Shown here one piece after another: positions 3,501 through 50,953 of a DNA stretch of 64,000 nucleotides (the stretch's first letter is position 1; every line of letters begins with the position of its first letter). The DNA lies in assembly GCF_036373705.1 (NCBI RefSeq), contig NC_089851.1:20155470-20219469 (forward strand), given 5' to 3'. Made by a program: the position numbers and the translations under genes. The notes under the pieces are model-generated. The model did not search any database and was not told where the DNA came from. It saw only the letters and a program-made list of their open reading frames with translations. The DNA comes from Amia ocellicauda (taxonomy: Eukaryota > Chordata > Actinopteri > Amiiformes > Amiidae).

Positions 3501-6500
3501 TGACTTCCTAAAAGTAATTGGAAAGGGGAGTTTTGGCAAGGTATGTATGGAAGCAACTGTTGTAAAAGTGGAATAGGAGAATCAAGAGCCTGTATCACTG
3601 CATCTCTGAATTGTTGTTGCAGTAATAAATTAATCCCAACCAAAATATTGTTTATATAAAATGCCCCTCCTCATCAATGATAGTGGGACCATGACTAAAT
3701 AATGACTCAATTCCTGTCACCAGCTGTCATCAGAAAGGAGCTATGTTCTTATTAATTCTGTTCTTTTGATCTACTGAGGTTCTGCTGTAACTTACACATT
3801 CTGGGACTTAAAAGCATTCGATGTGTGAGGCATCAATATCAGAATAAATAAAGTGGATCACTAGGGGATTCTGTAGGGTATTTATTGAAAAGGTTTTTAC
3901 TCCATGTGTTTACTGGAGTGGAAACCATTATATTTATGTATGCTACTGGTGACATTTTGGAGCAAGACGATCAAAACGTCTCTCTCATTGATGCTCTAAC
4001 CCGTCTTCTTTGCTTCTTATTGGATCAGCAGATGGAATTTCTATTTGGGAAGTGAAAGGTGCACTTCTTAGTTTCCCCTTATAGTTTCTGGCAAACTTGT
4101 CTGTTGTGTCTTAAAAATCGGTAATTAAATGTTGTTATTTTTCTCATCAAGGTTCTTCTTGCAAAACGTAAACTGGATGGGAAATATTATGCAGTCAAAG
4201 TCTTACAGAAAAGGGTCATTGTGAACAGAAGAGAGGTAACTGATGCATGTGGAAGCAATTGTCTGTGACAACTTTTTAAATATATATTCTACGTGTATAT
4301 TTATACTTGGCATTGCTTTGTTTTTCTCCCAGCAAAAACACATCATGGCCGAACGCAATGTGTTGCTAAAGAATGTCAAACACCCATTCCTGGTTGGATT
4401 GCATTATTCGTTCCAGACAACTGATAAGCTTTACTTCGTTTTGGATTTCATCAATGGGGGAGAGGTAAAAAGCTTCTTATTTTTTAATGTACTGTTATGA
4501 GTCATCTTTGGAGGAACAAAAACAATTAAGAAATGCCCCGAGTGGTGCAAATTAGGAAGTTCATTGTGTAATACGGATACTGGTCTTGGACTGGTCTTGG
4601 CTTACCATTTCTTAATATTATGTTTTCAGTATTACTATACCACTAATACTAGTATTCATCATATATGTCTGATTTGGTGTTCCTTGCTTAAAAGTGCATG
4701 CTGGGCCAGACAGAACTGAATGATTTTTCCTTAATGGTGGTTCTGGCAATGCCCTGGAGAGTGGGAATGACCAACACTGATGATAAGCTTATACTGGCTG
4801 TTGTTTAAGCATATCTGCACACATCTTTGTTTTCTATGTGTAGTAGAGACAATACTGGCTTTGTTAACTACAGTTTTGTAGACTTATTACAGAGCTCCTT
4901 CGGCCTGTCTTGTGTATCAGCTCCTTATTTAGCGGAGATAGTGTATTGTTTCTTCAGTGCAAACTAGCAGTTAAAAATAGACTGTTACACCTACAAAGAA
5001 TTCCCATTGTTCTGGAAGTTTCTAATGAAGACTCCCAACACGGCAGCTGTAATAGCAATTTATAATAAATGAAGAAAAGGTTTTCCATCTGGATACAAGC
5101 CCTTTAGTCCTCCCGGCTGTGGTGTAAGTTAAAATGGTCAGTGTGGGAGATTTATTCACAGATTGGGATCAGTGAATTAGCACCACTTCATGCTGTGTAA
5201 GCAAAGCTAGCTGTATGAAAATATTTTATTAGTATTTTCATAAATGCCAATCCAGTTCCTGGTGGTTACATTTCTGATTTAGACAGGATATTGTTAGTTT
5301 TCTGGAATCTTTATTCACTTAAAGTTTCAAAGGCCAGTTTTGTCAAAATATAAGTGTTTTGAAGCCGCTCAGGTCTGTTGCTCTGTATTTTCAGCTGAAT
5401 GTGCCTTTGCTGTTACATATTAATATTTGTGTTTTTCGTGGAAGGAACATTTTTGAGTCCCTAATTTGTATCTGGTGTATTTTTATCCTCCTTATAATGC
5501 CTTATTCTTCCTGGAAAATAGGACATCTAAAACCACAAAAGATCTCCAGAGTTTCTGTGTTTCACTGCTGAGCGCAGTTTCATACTTACCTAGGAATGTA
5601 CAGAAAGGATGTGTAGTGTGCCATCGGGCAATACTACACTAATTGACTGGCTCGACAACAGAGAGGCAGATGTGGTGTTGCGAAAGGGGTTTTTACTCAT
5701 TTTCTCAGATAAAGATACAATACTTAGCAGTTGGAAGTGAAAGGCCTTGTTCCCTGTCATTCTCCCAAGTGAATCTCAATGTTAATTACATTGAAATAAT
5801 GAAAATAAGTAATTTCAGTATGTTTTGCAGAATGTCTTGCAGTGTGTCAATGGCTCCACTTGACCAGCTGTCCCCCATCTAATTTCAGCTCTTTTTCCAT
5901 CTACAAAGAGAGCGCACCTTTCCAGAACCCAGGGCCAAGTTTTACATTGCAGAAATGGCAAGTGCACTCGGCTACCTGCATTCACTGAATATTGTTTACA
6001 GGTAAATTCCATGTATTTATTTAATCATTTGAAAACAGACGTTTTTGTAAATTTCTATACATTATTATTTTAGGTTAAACCTGTTAGCAAAAGGGCATAT
6101 TCAGTAGATTAATAAGGCACCCAAAACTAGCCATTTTCTGGTATTATAAGGCCTTGTCTGATTATAATTTTCCACTGGACAAATGTCCTAGATAATCTGA
6201 ATGTTTAACCTGTGCTTCAGTGTTTACACTGCTGAGGGGTTTATTATTACCTTGTGTTTTTTGGGCACATTTTGTTTGTCTTCCCCAAACAAATATGGGG
6301 AATATGCCAGGAAGTCCTGCAGTGTGGACAGGTAGTCCTCCCACTAAGGCAAATTAGTTTTTCTTCTACCTAATGTTATAATGATGTCTCTGTGTGGCTG
6401 CTTGTGGGGGACAAGGTGTGCCAGTGGGTGACTTGTGATAGTCACCATGGAAAAAGTGTGTTTAGGAGTGTTTCCTGAGAAAATGAATTATGAGCTGCTT

Positions 6501-12389: not shown

Positions 12390-21478
<9,089 letters not shown>

Positions 21479-22200: not shown

Positions 22201-22219
22201 TGGATTGAATGCGAATCCC

Positions 22220-22225
22220 TTTATT
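22220..22225 (-). terminator. SNHG6 polyadenylation signal
   Basis: AATAAA on the minus strand (TTTATT on +) about 125 nt into the last exon, in the context CCAATAAAGGG. Confidence 0.5.
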
Positions 22226-22786
22226 GGTCAGAACCTCTACATGAATTCAAAGATGGGCAAAAGACTAATTGCACACTGGAAACTGCCATCCAGCCAATCG
22301 AGGGTGGTTGAAACTGCTCCTCCAACAACTGAAGTCTTCAGTCTTCACCTCTGGAAAAATAAACCACAGCAGTAAGGATAAAAGGTACAAAAGTTAATGT
22401 AATAAAAACATCCTCAAATTCACATTAAATTTAGAAACATTAAACCACTGGAGCCCAATCCCATCATTAAAGAGCAGTTGTGGTCAAGAAGTAATTATAT
22501 ACTACATGCAAGATCCCATGCTTTCCAGCAATTACAGAAAACACTGCCTCTTGGTTATCCAGCCTTCCTCTGTAGGACATGTAGTTTCATTAGCATGTGG
22601 TTATTGAAAGTTAATCTATAAGACATGAGGTTTAAAAGCCTGCATAAAAAGTATACCTCTTTACCAGGGATACAAGACTATTTTACAGTATACACAATGC
22701 TATGATCATTTTTAAGAATCATCACTTGAAAATGTATTCGCGTTTCCTATATGAGCCTATTGGTGGTTCTTTAAAATTATGGCAGT

Positions 22787-22873
22787 GCTGGAGGCTCAGA
22801 TTATCAGGGTCAGCACCCCAGCGTGTAGTCTGATGGGTAAACGGCAAAGTTAGGAAATCATCACAGCTCCAGC
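22787..22873 (-). ncRNA. SNORD87: SNORD87 copy 6 (last intron)
   Basis: C/D-box snoRNA of 87 nt. The 5' GCTGGAG and 3' CTCCAGC form a 7-bp terminal stem. C box GTGATGA, guide TTTGCCGTTTACCC, D'-like ATCAGA, C'-like GTGCTGA, D box CTGA. The guide is complementary to GGGTAAACGGC in vertebrate 28S rRNA. The segment between C' and D (CCCTGATAAT) is shorter than in the other copies. Confidence 0.9.
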
Positions 22874-23382
22874 AGCACCACACTGACTAGGACACACCTG
22901 TGGTACACTGTGGTGGACCAAAAGTAGCAATTATAAAACTACTAATAGTGGATCTATCTCTATCAAATCAATAACTACTGATTTCATAGTCTCTTGCAAC
23001 TAAAATTAACTTACGTGAGTCCGGTCACAAGATAGTCCTGAAACACAGGATTTTCACATCCCTAAAAGGAAACATGTTAATATAATGTGAAATACGAACA
23101 TAAACTCCAGGGTTGGTGTCGATTCCAAGTCCTTTCAATTCAATTGCAATAGAGCCCAGTGTCAATGGCAAAAATAAATTAAAACTGAACTGGAATGGAA
23201 AAGTAGAATTGACCCAAACCCTGGTAAACACAGAAATCAGAAGTCATCCATCCCATCAGTGCTTGCGTTAAACAAAAACACAAGCCCCTTAGAACAGGAT
23301 GTCTGGGGTGGTCACGATGCCTATTTGACTATACTCAATTCTGGGCTGCTGGCTTTCAGATGCTCTACATGTCAGTGCTGGT

Positions 23383-23468
23383 GCTGGAGACTCAGATCGT
23401 CACAGTGTCAGCACCCCTTTAAGTCTGATGGGTAAACGGCAAAGTAAGTAAATCATCACAGCTCCAGC
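23383..23468 (-). ncRNA. SNORD87: SNORD87 copy 5
   Basis: 86-nt C/D-box snoRNA: terminal stem GCTGGAG/CTCCAGC, C box GTGATGA, guide TTTGCCGTTTACCC, D'-like ATCAGA, C'-like GTGCTGA, D box CTGA. The loop between D' and C' is the shortest of the set (CTTAAAGGG). The variable segment before D reads CACTGTGACGAT. Confidence 0.9.
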
Positions 23469-23983
23469 AGCACCACACCGACTATAGATGCAGAGCAAGG
23501 AACAGCAGTCCTGCAGTACCTCAATACCATTAACTTTTCATTTTGGAACTAGTGCCCAATGGACTTTCCAATCCATTACAAAGCTAAATCAATACAATTA
23601 AAAACTTAACCATTTGTTCCTTTGCAAAACTTAAGCATATCCAGACTGGAAGTCCCAGTAGATACTCTACAAAGCCAAATGGAAATGATATACATCACTG
23701 TCACCCTGAGAAATTGTACCCAAAAATACCCAAATCAATTCTAAACAATTAGACCGTTCTCAAATTCAGGAGAACTAGTTACGTTCTTCCACATACCTCT
23801 TCCATGGATTCTTGGTTGTCCTCTCCGAGAGCAGTCCGCCATACTCTGCGATGTCATTCTCCACCACTGCCTAAAACATAGCATGCATGGCTTCATAGTA
23901 TCTCCACAGGTGAAAATAGGCAAGTTAAAATGCTGTACTCTGTGTAAGGCACCTTATACATTGACAGCATTGTATTCAGTGCT

Positions 23984-24073
23984 GCTGGTACTCAGATCAT
24001 TAGATTGTCACCACCCCAAATAGTGTCTGACGGGTAAACGGCAAAATGAAATAAAAATCATCACAGTTCCAGC
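23984..24073 (-). ncRNA. SNORD87: SNORD87 copy 4, most diverged
   Basis: 90-nt member with C box GTGATGA, an insertion before the guide (TTTTTATTTCA), guide TTTTGCCGTTTACCC, then GTCAGA where others have ATCAGA. The C'-like box is GTGGTGA and the D box CTGA. The terminal stem is shortened to GCTGG/CCAGC with an A-A mismatch. The segment before D is CAATCTAATGAT. The 28S guide is unchanged despite the other drift. Confidence 0.87.
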
Positions 24074-24655
24074 AGCAACACACAGACCATGCAAATCACC
24101 TAATTTTTTAAATCGGGGCCTTCAGAAGAGAGTGTAAATTACTTGTTGCAGTAGTGGTCAATGCCTAGACCACACACAGCTCTGGATATGGGTTTGCTAA
24201 ATAACTAATGTAGTCATGGGCAAGAATAATGCCAATTGCTTGATTTGTACTCGCCTCACCCCTCTCAGCAAGTCAAGCCAAGACCAAAGACTAACAGACA
24301 AGTCAGCAACCCATTTTGACTACAACAGTCCACAGGTCGTCCCCACCCCCTCCTCCAATTTAAGCAACTAATGTTTTCTATATATGCCCATGTGTACTCA
24401 GCCAAATGTATACGTTTTATGCCACCAACTCACCTAGCTGTCAGCTGTCCTCCGTGCTCCTCACCATCACGATCCACTGCGGACTGAAACAACCAGTTTA
24501 AAATTAGCCATGTTCTGGATGAAGCGATGCACTGGTACCTGTTGAAAAAACACTTCAAAAGCATATGCAGAAGCCACAGCAGGGAGCATATAGACAGTAT
24601 TCTGTACAAGACCCCAGATCCATTGATACACCAGTCTACCTAGGTCCGTATTGGT

Positions 24656-24742
24656 GCTGGAGACTCAGATAAGTGCATTGTCAGCAACCCAGCTAGAGTC
24701 TGATGGGTAAACGGCAAAGAAGCAAATCATCACAGATCCAGC
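24656..24742 (-). ncRNA. SNORD87: SNORD87 copy 3
   Basis: 87-nt C/D-box snoRNA: stem GCTGGA/TCCAGC, C box GTGATGA, guide TTTGCCGTTTACCC, D'-like ATCAGA, C'-like TTGCTGA, D box CTGA. The segment before D (CAATGCACTTAT) differs from all sister copies. Confidence 0.89.
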
Positions 24743-25332
24743 AGCAACACTGACCAGGAGACTCTAGGGGTACGTTGTAATAGGTCAAAGGCAGCATTTC
24801 TTCACCTTTAACTACTGTTCCGAGTTCATACTAAACTCATAAGAAATGTTACACATCAACTCATCTAAGAGGGGCAGAACTTTTACCTACGATCATAGGG
24901 ATACACAGAGCACATTTCTCCACAGAGGGAAATCAGCCCCCTTTGTTCAAAGGACAGCATTAAATCATTCTTTCCCCATTAATCACCTCTACACGGAACT
25001 CGCCCAACCCACAAACTGCCTTTATTCCAGTGGGATGCTGCAGTGAATAACCCACAAGCCCTGTACACATTGGATTATTCAGCTTTCCAACACCCTGCCC
25101 GTCACAAACACAAAATCCTTCCATCTCACACTTACCATGATCAGGTCCGAGAAACTTCCCAGTGGCCAGTGTTCTGTGGTCTTCCCTAAAAAACAAAATC
25201 CTGGTTTGATTCCAGAACATGACGTATGCACAGCCTTCTCTGGGTCATTTATCGGGAATGTCAGAGCTACCACATTCTGTTAAACCTAGCTGGATAACAA
25301 ACCCCTCACTCAGGGTGCTCCCTTAGGTCATT

Positions 25333-25418
25333 GCTGGAGACTCAGATCATCACAGTGTCAGCACCCCAATTAGGTCTGATGGGTAAACGGCAAAGTTAGG
25401 AAATCATCACAGCTCCAA
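25333..25418 (-). ncRNA. SNORD87: SNORD87 copy 2
   Basis: 86-nt C/D-box snoRNA with C box GTGATGA, guide TTTGCCGTTTACCC, D'-like ATCAGA, C'-like GTGCTGA, D box CTGA and CTCCAGC at its 3' end. The 5' arm reads TTTGGAG instead of GCTGGAG, which leaves about 5 pairs plus one wobble in the terminal stem. Confidence 0.88.
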
Positions 25419-25954
25419 AGGCAATGCACTGACTGGGGAAAACATTCAAATATGGGTACTTCAGATGGTAATACAACCACAGATCTAAAGACAGCATTGA
25501 CTACCACTCCTTCTCTGTCAATCACCCCTTTACCACCAGAATTACACAACACCCCATGTCCCCACTAAACTTATCTAGATACAAAAACAATTTTGATTTA
25601 ACCAATAGCTGGGTGCAAAACACTATTCACCATCTGTGATGAACAGGTTACCAGTATTCCTACAATGGCGGTAGCATTGAGAGAAGGTTAAGTCTAGATA
25701 TTTCGAACAGACCTCCCATTACACAGCACCCAGACTTCCAAACCCAACCCAACTGTAACATCCCCAACTCCCCTGCTTACCATGGTCCACTGGAGTAGTC
25801 CTCCAGCCCCCACAATGTCACCATCCACCGCTTCCTAAGGGAGAATACTTAGTTAGGTGAAATTCTACTTGCCTTCATACACTAAAACACCAGGTAGGTG
25901 CTTTATAGCAGTGCATATTAACTGCTAGAATATGGTCTGAATGTTGGCGCAAGT

Positions 25955-26043
25955 GCTGGAGACTCAGATCATCACAGTGTCAGCACCCCAGCTAGTAGTC
26001 TGATGGGTAAACGGCAAAGTAAGGAAATCATCACAGCTCCAGC
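25955..26043 (-). ncRNA. SNORD87: SNORD87 copy 1 (first snoRNA intron)
   Basis: 89-nt C/D-box snoRNA with a perfect 7-bp terminal stem (GCTGGAG/CTCCAGC), C box GTGATGA, guide TTTGCCGTTTACCC, D'-like ATCAGA, C'-like GTGCTGA, D box CTGA. It lies about 120 nt from the 3' splice site of its intron. Confidence 0.91.
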
Positions 26044-26468
26044 ATCAGTGCACAGTAATTACTGGACATTAATTAATGAAAATGTAAGCTGAGCAGTCTT
26101 TCATTTTAAACCCTGACAGGGCAAGCAGCTTTCATAGTGTCATTCTTGCTTGAATGGATTGTGGTGGATCATAGATTTACTATAGGCCTACACTAATCAA
26201 GGCATCTGTCAAGTTAATTCTCCATTGTGAAACATCAACATCATCCTTATCTTATGATATTGATTACCAGCACTTAACGTGTAAAACCATTTGCCAGGTC
26301 AAACAAAAAACAAAACTCCTTCAATAGCTTGCCTACATTAAAGTGTATAATTTATTCAGTATCTTTCCACCCCCCCCCAAATTCCAGTTTAGGCCAACAA
26401 GCCTTTTGAAGTAGGTTTAAAGTCAACATCCATAAAACTTGAAAACCTTACCTATATTTGGAAAGTTG

Positions 26469-28882
26469 TCATGATGGAGTCACTAACAGTTTCAGTCTTT
26501 CACACGAAGACCAATTTCTCTCGACAGAGCACATCAATAGACCTGCAGGGAAAACAATATTTAGAATGGACAATAAACACTGAACATTACTAGTAACTCA
26601 TAAGGAAAGCATGTTAATCATAGTGTTTTCAGAATCCAGTATTACTTTAGGTACGTTTCACAATTCGGAAATAATGACCAGCTAAATTGAATCGGTCAGT
26701 CTACGATTGTTAATTATTTTATTTTTTCTTAAGTCTCTAAACTATTATCGAATACACAAGTGTAAATAAGCACTTTCAATTCTTATTAGATCAATTACAT
26801 CCAAAACTAACTGTACATTACAATACAGTATATGGCATTATTCTAGGGCTTTGGACGAATACAATTTTTGAATCCTTTGCGGTTTCTGACTAAATTTTAA
26901 TTATTTTTCCCCCCCAAAATATAAAGGGTGCAGTATGTGAACATTCCAGAGATTCTGCTCAGTATTTGCTCATAAGCCTAAAAAAAATATATACATTCCG
27001 ACGCATGACAAAGTAGCAGTTTCAATTTACCCCAAATGATGGATTATTGCTTTGGGACAGGAGTGCTAGATAGCATTACATCCCAGGAGGTACCGCACAT
27101 TTTCATTGTAGAAATGGTTATTACAGGGGGAAAAAAAGCTGCAGCTATATAGAGCCTAAGAGGAAAGCAATCTATACTTATTGCACAACTGAAATATAGG
27201 TTTTAAAATATGTAGCCGAACTATAAAAGTGGTCTTCAAACAATACCACATAACTCAGTTACCCGTGCATCATATACAAAACAAATGCACGGAAAACTGA
27301 CAATTTTTCATGATGACGGATTGCTCATCCAGTGCAGAGGTATTGATTTTTTTACCCCCCTCTCCAAAAAAAGATAAGATGCACTGAAAGAAGAGCCAAT
27401 GTAGGCGTGATGGTGTCAGACAGCAGGGATGACAGATGAACTGGGGGTCAAAGGGCCCATGTAGCACAGCTTGGTAGCACAGCTCTTAGCAGTGCCATGA
27501 TAGTTGTTCCCCGGCAGGTTCAACTCAATGTCAGGACCTTTACCAAGACCGCAGCACCTCAGAGACGGCCAAAGTCAGACTTCCCCAAGAACAGATTCCC
27601 TAACCAGTAGCCATGCGAGGCCCGTCACTCAGCCCGGTCAGGGCCACTGGACAGCCCCAACCACAGGGGCCCAAATGGCAAAGGGGCAATTTATCACTGG
27701 AACTGGGACAACCAGCTGCTAGCATGATTTATGAGGACACTGTGGGGATATTAGAGTCTTTGTTCAATTTATCAGATTTCCCCCTCATATTTTCAAGTAA
27801 TTGCTTGCCAGGATTTTCACCATTACAGCCTCACAGCACATGAACAGCTGGAAAACAGCTCAGTTGCCATGCGTGATTCCCGCACACTGCTGGGATATGG
27901 GTCACATGTTATGTGAATCTCTGAACATGGTTACATTATATTTTCCAAGTATCATGATTACTCGACCTTTGGGATTAAGAGCACTGCATGCATTGTCATA
28001 TGGGTCTATGGGAACCTGACAATGACATACTGTTTTTACAAGAACTGATGTCCCTTTGGTCTACAGAAATACAGTTTTGTATTATTAACAAAAACACTTG
28101 ACAAATGAAAGCATGTGCGAAGTTATAGGATCGCATCACATTTCAGAACTGCACATTCAAACCTCCAGATTAAGACAGACAAGTATACATCCTTAGCGAT
28201 ATGTACAAAACAATGCACAACATACTGCTAACCAGGTAAGCCCAGTCACTTTTTGATCGTGTTATTTGCGAGGGAGGTGGGGATCTAGCTTGAAATAGGA
28301 TTGCATTATTAAAATAGTTACTTCACCCAAGATGTCTGCGCGCACAGGACCATGCGGAGATGGCGGCCCTTTTCAGCGGGAAAAACCGCACACAGCACCC
28401 CTGCCTTAACCAAACTGAAACCCTGAGCATGGCGACAGAGGCCCGATTTACCAGAATCACCCAGCACTGCTCCCCGGAGGCCTGCAGCCCTCACCCCGCC
28501 GGGACAAGGGCCACATCCCCCAGGCCATGCGGAACACGTGTCGATCAATGCACCGGCCATCAGCTCCAGCAAGGGCACTAACTGCACCAAACCCGGCCGC
28601 CCTGCTCGACGTGGGTCTACAGCTCTGTCTCTTGCCATGCAGTCGCCTTTTCTAACATTTGCGAAAAATAAGCCTCATAAAAGCATTTTGAGAAGATCGT
28701 CAAAACGCCATTACAAATACACATCTGCTAGCTAAACTCAGCGGATTATTCATATAAAATTACTTACGCTTACATGCATTGAGTATAATAAAAAGTTGAA
28801 TTGGTAGATCATACCTAAGCAAAAAACAATTACCTGGTGAAAGTAGCAACAATTGTGAAATGAGTGGCGCAGCCGCCGCCAT
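26469..28882 (-). CDS. 40-codon ORF across SNHG6 exons 1-2
   Basis: After joining E1 (28834-28882) to E2, an ATG GCG at 28882 opens a frame of 40 codons ending in TGA at 26469-26471. The peptide starts MAAAAPLISQLLLL and ends KLLVTPS. It has no domain I recognise; the leucine run is hydrophobic. Six exon junctions lie downstream of its stop, the layout expected for a nonsense-mediated-decay target, which many snoRNA host RNAs are. It could equally be a chance ORF. No evidence of translation is visible in DNA. Confidence 0.35.
26543..28833 (-). other. SNHG6 intron 1 with GC-rich segments
   Basis: 2.3-kb intron without a snoRNA. Most is AT-rich. Two GC-richer blocks stand out, about 27500-27710 and 28330-28640. 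The second, inside the CpG zone of the promoter, is open for 106 codons on the minus strand (28318-28638) but has no recognisable domain. A GCCGCCATCTCCGCATGG stretch within it resembles YY1/NRF1-type promoter motifs. I treat both as non-coding. Confidence 0.4.
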
Positions 28883-29070
28883 GCTGGCAGGCTGCTCGTC
28901 TCCAGTGTGCGGCGCATGCGTGACTGCCGTCTTTATGCGCTCTGCTCAGGAAGCGCTAACACTGGCGCAGGCGCGAATGGTCGGGTTCTTTTAGCGCTGC
29001 TCTGCGCAGTTGTGCGCAGGTCTGCAGAATCCCGTCGATCCCATTGGTGGAGCAGCGCAGATCCGTGCAG
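28883..29070 (-). promoter_or_regulatory. SNHG6 promoter, CpG island with NRF1-like and CCAAT motifs
   Basis: CpG-dense sequence directly upstream of E1. It contains GCGCATGCGTG and GGCGCAGGCGCG (NRF1-like), CTGCGCAGTTGTGCGCAG (7-bp inverted repeat, 29002-29019) and an inverted CCAAT box (ATTGG in CCATTGGTGG, 29041-29050). A YY1-like GCCGCCATGCTGG overlaps E1. No TATA box. The 29001-29065 part recurs upstream of PPP1R42. The exact start site is not resolved. Confidence 0.55.
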
Positions 29071-31245
29071 AGAATCCGTGCGGCCAACGGGCATAGGAGG
29101 CTGGAGTGGAGTAGCACTGCGGCTGCGCTGCGTCCTGTCTCTTAAATGTGAGCTGGGTGTGAGCATCGCTTACCCGTGTGCTTTACCAGACATTAGCAAA
29201 AGACGCATCATTGTAATGCACCAAAAATGTAATTATCTTCTCCTGCTCGATTTTAACATGTTTACATGAACATACAGTTTTGCTGTAATAGTAATAGTAA
29301 GAATAAGAATAAGAACAATATCACCAAAACCGAAATCGTGTCTCTTACTCCAGAGGAACCATGTGTGTTTTAAATATTTATTTTGAATTCGTGAAGATTA
29401 AATCCAAAATAATCTGTCCCTGCAGAGGACAATGTGTTGATGCAGATGTTCGTGTGGTGAGATAGTGAGCTTTAACAGTTTGCTTTGCAGCTTTAACCTA
29501 AAGCTTTCTTTGTGTCAAAACGAACTGCTTAAGAATATCCAAGAATTATTGCCTTGCCAGATAGGGAGCCAAATCCTTAGTAAACAGCAGCCACATGGAC
29601 AAGACTGAAGCCACGCAGTCGCTGCACTGGATTGTAGACTGCACTGTTCTGCGCTGTGCATTCCATACATGAATTGTGTCATATTTGACTGTCCTAAGGC
29701 ATAAAACTAACAAGGAGTTACAGACAATCTATAAGAATGACTCTATTGAGTAAACACTTGCTTGCAATTAATTTAGCTTAAATAAAATGTTCTTTGACTG
29801 GGAGTATACTTGTTCTAATCCATGCATAATCCCTCTAAAATAGTAAATAAACCCCATAATCTTACAGATACATTTTTAAATAAACTACAAGGCAAACCCT
29901 GTAAGGGCTGCACTCAAATGCTCATTGTCAACCTACAGTTTCCATTCTTTACCTTGAGTATCTTCTTTAATTAATTCAGTTAATTAACTCATTGCAAAAG
30001 CTGATTAAATATATTCAAAGCCATACAGTGATTTGTATACCATTACAGAAAGCATATTTTGCATTAATGTTTGGCTCTGCTATGAGCAGTTGAAAGCTCT
30101 AAAAAAGGCTAATATAATGATTCAGCCTTTGGTATGTGTTTGTGTTTGTTATTAAGTTATTTATTTAATATTCTGTGCAAATCCTAAACTCAGACCGCTA
30201 AAAAGTACAATTTACAAAAAAAAAAAGGAAATTGTTTGATCAACTGTAGTAATTTCAGATTATTTCCAGTCTGGAAATTCCAGACCCTGTGTCTACCAGA
30301 CAAGTCCTCCTCAATGTGTACAAACTTGTGAGGGCAGCTATATCAACCATTTCCACAAGCAGGAAGACATTTTATACCTAGAAGACTTTTATTTATGTGC
30401 TGCACGTATCTTCAGTAAGAGATGAAAAGATGAAATGAGATGAAAGAGACACTGATTTAGTTAATAACCAAGCACCTTAAAAAGTCTTAACTAGCAGAAT
30501 TACACATTACCAAGTGTACAATGTCAATATTATTGCACTTTCTCTTTAACGCCTGTACTAAATCATTTGTAGAGTCACCTATTTGACATTCAATACATTC
30601 TCTGTGAAAGAATAACCGCTCTGTTCAGCTTTAAGAAGTGTGAACACAATGTAGTAATTAACAGCAATTTTTAATTTCCCACATGTAGCAGCTTTTCCTC
30701 AAAAAAGTTGTCTTGAATTATTTTATAGTTTAATGTTTTTCTTTGTTTGTTTGACTTAAATACACGACTGAATTCTCAACACTGAATCTGGACTTGGTGG
30801 ACTACTTCACTTGGAAAGGAATATACAGTATTAACATTAATTAATCACTCATTCAAAGAATGCAGGAAAACACAACTCTGTTTAAATATATATTTTATAA
30901 ATATAAATATAATATGTATAAATATTTATAAAATCAATATCAATAATTAGATGTTTGAAAAACATTCTGGAACATCATTGGCTATCATTTTAACCAACAT
31001 GAAAACTGCAATCTGTTGGCCAGTCTCAAATGACTCACACAGAAATTGATTATTTCCATTGGGCAGAAACAACATATCCCTGTCAAACAAAAAACCACAG
31101 TTATGTATCAGGGTTGTTAGATGTGATTGGTGTGTGGGTTGAAGTTTGGATATATTCTGGGTCTTAATGTAAATCATAAATTGTGATGAAACTGCACTGC
31201 TGTTTCTCTAATTCAGAAAAATAGATTATCATCATAAACATATAG

Positions 31246-33869: not shown

Positions 33870-35429
33870 CTACGTCTGGGAAGTCGAGGACTCGCCTTGG
33901 TTTGAGGTTTCAGCCTGACCCGAATTATTCAGAAACTGTCCTGTGGCACCAATGTACAACCGGGATCGCATTGGCCATTTCTGAAAATGAATGAATAAAT
34001 ATATAAATAAATAAATGTGAACCTGGTTAAAATATATTTTCTTTACCAGTGTTGCATCCCTTTTGCTGTCATCACCACTGAATATTTTTTTTCTTCATTT
34101 TAAGTTTCATCAAAGAGTAGAGGGATTTTTCTTTAGTTAATGATAAAGAGAGTTATATTAAAGAAACATTTATTCAGTGTTTTTGAAGTGATGCATTTGC
34201 TGTACACTCCTTCAGGTTTTACCGAGTAGGCATAAGATTCAGGTACAGGTACACAAAGACCTTTTAAAATATTTTAAAAAATAAATAGATTTGCTCACAA
34301 CCATGAATGTAAACCACAACAGTACCTAAATAGCAATTAAAATAGCTTCTGGCATAGTATCAATGTGTTACTAATATCCTATAAATATAGGCTATGCTAA
34401 CATATGTAAAAACAACATATCCACCATTCTGTCTTTCTTATACAGGTAAACTCTTTTAATGCATTAGCTATACAAGAACAATTTTGAAATTGATCAGAAT
34501 TTTGGATGCAGGGATTACATAATTGAATCAGATTTATACTTTGAGCTGTTTTTCTCATGTTATTGCCATTAAAGAATTTCAAACTAATGATATAGATGTC
34601 TTACATTGTATTATGTATTGTATAAATATATATTCATACTTCTAAATTAAATAAGGTGCCAGCTATACAAATACAAAGTAGGAGGCTATAAGAAATGAAT
34701 AAAACAAATTACACATTTACTAATTCCATGAACAGATATATTAAAAAAAAAAAAATTAAAATCTTTGTATTCGCATACAAATAATAATTTAGTAGCCAAC
34801 TTTCTACCGGTTAACAAAAAGGCTCTTAAGAATTGTTTTTCAAATCTAGTTTTAAACTCTAGTTTTAAAATCGCCCAATCTGTTATATGTAAAAAGTAGA
34901 CATTATAATTAATATTATTATTCAATGCAAGCTACGCTGTCTTTTATTCTCCTTTGAACGCCAGTCTCCCGCTACTCACTTTCACCGGGTGCAGGTACCC
35001 CTCGCCCTTCAGGGAGTGCAGCACCTCCGCCGGCCGGGTCCCCTCTCCCTCCTCCGCGCCGTCCTCCTGCAGGGTGCGGGTCAGGTGCGCGATGTAGGTG
35101 GTGGCCAGGATCAGCACGTCCAGCTTGGACAGCTTGGTGTCCGGGGGCACGGAGGGCAGGGTCCTCTGGAGCTCCAGGAAAGCGTGTCGCAGCGTCTGCA
35201 CTCGGCTCCTCTCCCGGGCGGCGTTGGCTGCGGCGGGCCGCCCTCTGCCGCCGAGGCTGGCCGGACGGAGCCCCCTGGAGCGGGCCAGCGCCTCCGAGCG
35301 CCGCCGGTCCGGGCCCAGCAGGGCGTCCACGTCCGGGCCGGGGCTGGAGCTGGGGCTGGAGGCCGGGCTGTCGTCCATTATGATGACTGGAGCGGCGCCG
35401 CTGTCCATCAGTGACGGTCTTCCCACCAT
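33870..35429 (-). CDS. TCF24: TCF24, bHLH transcription factor 24
   Basis: Two coding exons. Exon A, 34980-35429, gives 150 residues and ends HPVK at a GTGAGT donor. Exon B, 33870-33980, follows a TTTTCAG acceptor, continues [17 protein letters not shown] and stops at TAG. Total 186 residues. The bHLH domain spans about 69-120: basic region [13 protein letters not shown], helix 1 [11 protein letters not shown], loop SVPPDTK, helix 2 [17 protein letters not shown]. It is a class II-type factor expected to bind E-boxes in the nucleus with an E-protein partner. The N-terminus is Ser/Pro-rich ([12 protein letters not shown]). Met1 (35429) is preferred for being first, but Met8 (MDSGAAP) is equally possible. 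Reading through the donor gives a false end [11 protein letters not shown]. Human TCF24 has the same [15 protein letters not shown] junction as I recall it. Intron 33981-34979 is AT-rich and shows nothing else. Confidence 0.93.
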
Positions 35430-35470
35430 AGGGACGCGGCCAGACTCCAGACTGACTGAGCTCAGTGCGG
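34970..35470. other. CpG island over TCF24 coding exon
   Basis: Dense CpG and high GC relative to both flanks, coinciding with the first TCF24 coding exon. It explains the long open frames seen on both strands here, which are shadows of TCF24. Confidence 0.7.
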
Positions 35471-36119
35471 ACAGTCACTCTTGCGACATGTACCCTTCAA
35501 AACATGAATAAAAAGCATATTGATTATCCTATACAATAAGGTACATTATTTTTTGTTTGTTTGTTTAACAGAAAACACTTGTTTATTAATAATTGGTGAT
35601 AAGTTAGACCATACTTTTTATACCACCGCAGAAAATATTCTTCTTCTTCTTAGGCCTATTAATAATCATAATCATAATCATAATCTAAAACCAGCCTGGT
35701 ATATCACACACACACAAACACAAACTGTTGATAATTCGCCGGTTTTGATTATATGGTTATTGTGTACGCTCTGCACGCATGATCAAATTGGTTTACTTTA
35801 TACTATGATGTACCTATATATTATTATTTGTAACATCCACGTTTCTATTTTATTAGCTGTTCGTGGTTTTAACTACCTTTTCATTTCTTTCTTTCTTTCT
35901 TTCTTTACAAACTTAAATGCACCATGAGAGTCCGAATCTGATGAATGTAATTTATGATAAGGCGACAAAAAGGGTTAAAATGGTTATATTATTAAAAAGC
36001 ACACTGAGTTTTTAAATCCTGGTTACTGTGCAAGTAACTCTATTTCAGGCCCATTAGTATTTTCATCTGTTTCTCATCATGGCCATGATGAATGTGTCAG
36101 GCGCCCTCCAGTAGTCATC

Positions 36120-36558: not shown

Positions 36559-36906
36559 TTAACTGTATACCACCTACATTATGTATTTAATTTAAACCGA
36601 TGCTGTACTATACTGCGCACCAGGGGGAGACAGACTGGGGGAAAAGATTAAATACACTAATATACCGTCTTCTGTCTTACATTTCTTCTGTGTCTGGAAA
36701 AATTGCAGAATGACGACGACTGCGATGCTGACGATGACTGTTATATAACTGGCACACTTACTTCAGTTAGTACAACTCAAATATTACAAAAAATAGTCTA
36801 AACAGGTGTCATTTGCTAATGGTCATACCTTCCCTGAAATTCATACCTACCCTAATGTAAACCTAAACATTCATGTTATATACAATTTTACTGGATACTA
36901 CTGTGG

Positions 36907-36907
<1 letters not shown>

Positions 36908-36983
<76 letters not shown>

Positions 36984-37000
36984 TACATTTACGCACACAC

Positions 37001-37091
<91 letters not shown>

Positions 37092-37192
37092 TACATTTAC
37101 ATACACACATATACAGTGCATATATATTATATACATACATACATACATTTACGGACACACATATACAGTGTATATATATATATATATATATA
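36908..37192. repeat. Compound (AT)n/(AC)n microsatellite
   Basis: About 285 bp of alternating AT and AC dinucleotide tracts: AT 36908-36975, AC-rich 36976-37030, AT 37031-37079, then a twice-repeated ACATACATTTAC…ACACATATACAGTG unit and a last AT tract. All reading frames through it are low-complexity Tyr-Ile/Cys-Val artefacts. Confidence 0.95.

Positions 37193-44610: not shown

Positions 44611-50953
<6,343 letters not shown>

Follow-up and report, generated by a model that had tools for sequence, protein, structure and literature searches.

SNORD87 has been recorded as a multi-copy gene in zebrafish and Xenopus (four copies each) and in chicken (two), against one copy in human (PMC3349704). 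The chicken counterpart of HBII-276, GGgCD46, appears in PMC2653536 with three copies, one each in introns 1, 2 and 3 of a single host EST. The authors of PMC3349704 propose a trend to low snoRNA copy number in placental mammals, a view that respondents, in replies published with that article, reject as a general rule, citing SNORD115/116 against it. Another known case is U17, which occupies each of the six introns of Xenopus S8 (cited in PMC7601244): this is likewise one snoRNA repeated across six introns of one host, but U17 is of the H/ACA class, has a protein-coding host and does not serve rRNA methylation, whereas the case described here concerns a C/D-box SNORD87.

Within a 64-kb window of Amia ocellicauda NC_089851.1 (positions 20155470-20219469 of the contig, meaning here the whole stretch of DNA analyzed; G+C 36.3%), six C/D-box snoRNAs lie on the minus strand at 22787-26043. 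Their lower ends are 596, 601, 672, 677 and 622 bp apart, with the strand, number and spacing that had been predicted. Judged from its sequence, this is very likely an intact six-copy SNORD87 array with an ordinary presumed mechanism: there is strong reason to favor an SNHG6-type host gene carrying six paralogous SNORD87 copies in introns 2-7, which would guide 28S modification and which would have arisen by old tandem duplication. The original description of the snoRNA as “amplified” relative to mammals has to be qualified, given the published multi-copy SNORD87 of zebrafish, Xenopus and chicken beside the single human gene. Published counts for those species are four, four and two to three, so that the six found here form a larger set within an arrangement that has been described before. 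The literature searched on SNORD87 and SNHG6 in zebrafish and fish, to which subscription journals contributed little, yielded no description of a six-copy SNORD87.

The six copies are filed as SNORD87, a likely assignment, on their guide, boxes and locus. The covariance search supports the predicted identity: at an E-value threshold, all six copies can be aligned with positions 1-85 of the Rfam SNORD87 model (RF00439), although none of them reaches the gathering score of 50 bits, which is the curators' cut-off and not a biological feature. From intron 2 to intron 7 of the host, all on the minus strand, the copies are c1 (25955-26043; 32.4 bits, E 0.0019; boxes present; 120 nt upstream of the acceptor), c2 (25333-25419; 23.9 bits, E 0.37; boxes and guide exact), c3 (24656-24742; 35.8 bits, E 0.00023; boxes present), c4 (23984-24073; 32.3 bits, E 0.0021), c5 (23383-23468; 34.3 bits, E 0.00059; boxes present) and c6 (22787-22873; 33.2 bits, E 0.0012; boxes present). 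The scores thus span 23.9-35.8 bits, with E 0.00023-0.0021 in five copies; the lowest, that of c2, is not significant alone, and the part following the guide aligns poorly to RF00439. At Rfam's curated thresholds the whole window gives zero matches. That the cut-off misses every member of what is likely a genuine SNORD87 array implies that surveys of copy number based on it undercount these genes, as PMC3349704 argued.

Another family, sn2343 (RF01172), presumably of nematode origin, also matches all six copies (19.8-32.8 bits, E up to 0.7). The match is close in the C box and the guide segment, but the three alignments shown pass over most of the central and 3' portions, and the scores stay under the family's cut-off of 60. 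At E no higher than 0.1, Rfam gives 14 matches across the window: nine fall on these snoRNAs (c2 and c4 each being hit by one family) and five are to microRNA families. Three of the latter fall in a TA/CA repeat near 37 kb, a TA and CA microsatellite at 36890-37190 that attracts mir-297 matches under the cut-off.

Three elements are exact in every copy: the C box TGTGATGA, the 14-nt guide TTTGCCGTTTACCC and the D box CTGA. Every copy has CAGA as its D' box, degenerate relative to the CUGA of the Rfam consensus and at the same distance from the guide. A candidate C' box, assigned tentatively by its likeness to the C' consensus, reads GUGCUGA in four of the six, UUGCUGA in c3 and GUGGUGA in c4. 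Pairwise identity among the snoRNAs is 71.7-92.1%, with c4 as the outlier (72-78% to the others). The terminal stem GCTGGAG/CTCCAGC, predicted to be shared fully or in part, is complete in c1, c5 and c6; the outer stem of c2 is TTTGGAG. Over all copies, pairing holds in 90.2% of 41 stem cells, against 13.8-46.3% when the strands are slid; it does not exceed what shuffling the 3' letters yields (171 of 500 as good), and no stem pair among the six copies has changed on both sides, so that covariation is absent. Outside the snoRNA, about 14 nt immediately upstream (22874-22887, GTCAGTGTGGTGCT in c6) are partly common to c2-c6. Mammalian SNORD87 (RF00439; HBII-276, in SNHG6) shares the C box, guide, guide-D' distance, D box, terminal stem and (here predicted) intronic site; the differences are that mammalian SNHG6 has one SNORD87 and that here there are six, with CAGA as D' and scores under the Rfam cut-off.

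The combination of C box and guide appears confined to this locus. With up to three mismatches allowed, the window has nine matches to the 14-mer guide (six exact, none with one mismatch, three with two or three), against a mean of 4.23 in shuffles, 5 of 100 of which had at least nine. A covariance model built from the six copies recovers them, by construction, at E 1.2e-22 or better, and its sole further hit has E 1.1. In the whole Amia assembly (988,188,214 bases in 385 contigs) the exact 14-mer occurs seven times, in the six array copies and at one other site (L011). The latter was rejected as a seventh copy: it is a pyrimidine-rich (CT-rich) stretch with no C/D boxes recognizable by eye, and neither Rfam (E up to 1) nor the six-copy model (E up to 10) gives a hit there. 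A C box followed after 4-16 nt by the guide occurs at six places only in the assembly, as a count of exact motifs. An Rfam family search of the assembly at E up to 0.001 returned nothing; since it also missed all 14 controls and these six copies, it is uninformative on absence. In the viral contigs scanned, there were no places for the guide with D' and none for the 28S target.

The host model combines splice-site scoring (cut-off 5) with reading by eye, and consists of seven exons, A-G, plus a likely first exon, all on the minus strand. The predicted first exon (28834-28955) has a donor at 28833 scoring 7.9 and a start placed by eye; its 5' end, CTTCCT, is at a guess a 5'TOP. The remainder are exon A (26452-26542; acceptor 7.4, donor 9.8), B (25781-25834; donor 9.2, acceptor below 5), C (25136-25185; donor 9.9), D (24434-24483; donor 10.9, with alternative acceptor candidates at 24476, 24514 and 24538), E (23797-23870; donor 8.6), F (23015-23061; acceptor 5.6, donor 8.3, longer candidates existing) and the last exon, G (22214-22350; acceptor 8.8, AATAAA at 22225-22220, 3' end approximate). 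Each of the six donors that follow exons A-F scores between 8.3 and 10.9. Of the seven acceptors, three (A, F and G) reach 5.6-8.8; the other four (B, C, D and E) fall under the cut-off and were placed by eye. Other candidate exons are also listed by the splice-site scan. A protein-coding host was considered and rejected, the longest ATG frame in the modeled transcript being 44 codons. A scan of 28800-29100 for bacterial promoters and terminators, not meant for such genes, found nothing.

In this model each snoRNA lies inside its own predicted intron (introns 2-7 being 617, 595, 652, 563, 735 and 664 nt), between 113 and 436 nt before the next predicted acceptor (113-172 nt for c1-c4, 321 for c5, 436 for c6). 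The prediction of one copy per intron therefore stands for predicted introns 2-7 and fails for predicted intron 1 (28833-26543, 2291 nt), in which the model of six copies finds no SNORD87.

The host is probably an SNHG6-type gene, orthology here being deduced from the human gene order SGK3, MCMDC2, SNHG6, TCF24, PPP1R42. On one side of it is an SGK-like kinase (4240-4497, plus strand; best PDB match Sgk1 at 83 bits, the next 44), and on the other an HLH gene (34947-35474, minus strand) and LRR exons (48444-49968, minus strand; weak matches under the Pfam cut-off), a position that fits this order. A stretch at 13508-15819 on the plus strand is presumably MCMDC2-like; Pfam finds nothing in the three ORFs submitted from it, and gives a match in five of the 12 window ORFs submitted in all. 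An SNHG6-like position among SGK-like and HLH neighbors agrees with the prediction; the orthology of the host, for which the LRR matches are weak, is putative. Also in the window is a transposase of the Tc1/Sleeping-Beauty type (16536-17490, plus strand; PF25787, PF01498). It looks disrupted: the ORF stops at 17372, and a second one, overlapping it in a different frame, continues.

Ahead of D', the guide is complementary to 28S GGGUAAACGGC, exactly and over 14 of 14 nt in all six copies. Against the rRNA pieces compared, all from other eukaryotes (28S of L001, L002 and L004; 18S and 5.8S of L004), the best guide site of every copy is the same 28S place, with 14-17 contiguous pairs including G-U, a score reached by 2 of 180 shuffled guides. 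The same G, preceding UAAAC (of GCGCGGGUAAACGGC), stands at the fifth paired position in all six. The stretch GCGCGGGTAAACGGCGGGAGTAACTATGAC, presumably a conserved part of eukaryotic 28S, is found once in the Amia assembly, exact and inside a 28S fragment; it is also present in four records named as bacterial, all four of which match the Rfam eukaryotic LSU model. In human, the SNORD87 target is 28S G3723 (PMC3349704; PMC10911272; the main text of the review PMC8393311 has no occurrence of SNORD87 or 3723), and by deduction the G predicted to be methylated by all six copies is the counterpart of G3723.

A simple scheme would accommodate these features. The host would be transcribed and spliced, at sites that are themselves modeled, and each intron lariat, once debranched, would be trimmed down to a C/D snoRNP of 86-90 nt. 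Ahead of D' (CAGA), the guide would pair with GGGUAAACGGCGGG of 28S rRNA, where fibrillarin would methylate the third G, the presumed equivalent of human G3723. The array may have grown through ancient tandem duplications of exon-intron units; the introns, and the exons in part, would since have drifted, with the snoRNAs retained.

The age of the copies is suggested by what surrounds them. Sequence lying between and around the snoRNAs was compared as 21 pairs of stretches, of which 20 fall inside the spread of shuffled scores (7-196 of 200 shuffles as good); the one exception is 26900-26060 versus 23382-22891, matched by 1 of 200. (This comparison left out the 15-17 nt just upstream of each copy, where some similarity remains.) Introns with almost no detectable similarity, enclosing snoRNAs that are 72-92% identical, suggest that the copies are old and have been maintained. 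The simplest reading would be purifying selection acting on every copy, with gene conversion confined to the snoRNA as a possible alternative to it.

One other possibility is that only one or two SNORD87 copies work and that the rest are decaying, still alike through recent duplication or gene conversion. The low identity of c4 to the others would fit, as would the imperfect outer stem and low Rfam score of c2 and the distance of c5 and c6 from their next predicted acceptors (321 and 436 nt vs. 113-172 nt for c1-c4). The guide, C box and D box are nevertheless intact in all six while the intervening stretches show next to no resemblance, unlike what recent duplication or decay would leave, and this explanation is considered unlikely. 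If, on the other hand, all six copies are functional, each might be kept by selection for dosage, with the level of 28S methylation set by copy number in this lineage, as might be the case in oocytes or early embryos with their bulk production of ribosomes. A link between SNORD87-guided 28S methylation and proliferation has been described in human fibroblasts (PMC10911272), but for this locus the dosage idea, raised in the original prediction as well, is speculative and rather doubtful.

How the array grew is suggested by its exons. In register from the exon start, exons B and D agree at 26 of 38 positions, B and E at 26 of 38, and D and E at 23 of 38; random blocks did as well in 0, 6 and 2 of 3000 trials, respectively (the likeness of B, D and E had been spotted by eye prior to the test). 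The remaining seven of the ten exon pairs give no sign of homology (537-2953 of 3000 random blocks as good), with C and F unlike the others. The resemblance of B, D and E in register indicates that exon-intron units were duplicated, at least three of them; the predicted amplification of the snoRNA together with its exon-intron unit can be retained to that extent, and finds no counterpart in C and F. Were the snoRNAs instead retroposed into existing introns, the dissimilarity of C and F would be expected. Such an origin would leave the in-register likeness of B, D and E and the partly common nucleotides upstream of c2-c6 to be explained, and by eye neither an A-rich tail nor a target-site duplication is seen; it is accordingly held improbable.

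The original prediction also raised the possibility that multiplication left room for new guides, and the copies could have become guides to additional rRNA sites by way of the region before the D box, which does vary between them. In c4 this region forms 13 contiguous pairs, including G-U, with a eukaryotic 28S, and 2 of 30 shuffles were as good. For the other five D-regions, 11-30 of 30 shuffles did as well; for the six internal regions (those before the internal CTGA, or before GTGA in c4, where an internal CTGA is absent), 7-20 of 30 did, and the c4 result, as one of 12 tests, is near chance expectation. With no complementarity clearly beyond shuffles to the rRNAs of other eukaryotes in any of the six D-regions and six internal regions, this part of the prediction was not borne out, and such second guides seem very improbable. 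Misassembly can occur in tandem arrays, but the six copies and the stretches between them all differ in sequence, unlike one stretch repeated in error, leaving an assembly artefact scarcely credible.

Duplication of exon-intron units in an SNHG6-type host, with retention of the snoRNAs, would make this array a good case of a snoRNA multiplied along with its exon-intron unit and retained while the enclosing introns turned over almost completely. Placed with the published counts, it extends a vertebrate series of one, two to three, four and six copies. Does the number of snoRNA genes set the level of methylation? A series of this kind could be used to ask.

The exact target match in the Amia assembly is carried by L013 (5068-5787), a fusion of partial 18S and partial 28S sequence. 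Its 28S portion ends at CTCTTA, presumably beside the R2 insertion place, and is followed by apparently unrelated sequence. In L001 (380-560), a 28S in a record named as that of a tubeworm endosymbiont, the conserved sequence is left after ACTCTCTTA, at the same place as in L013.
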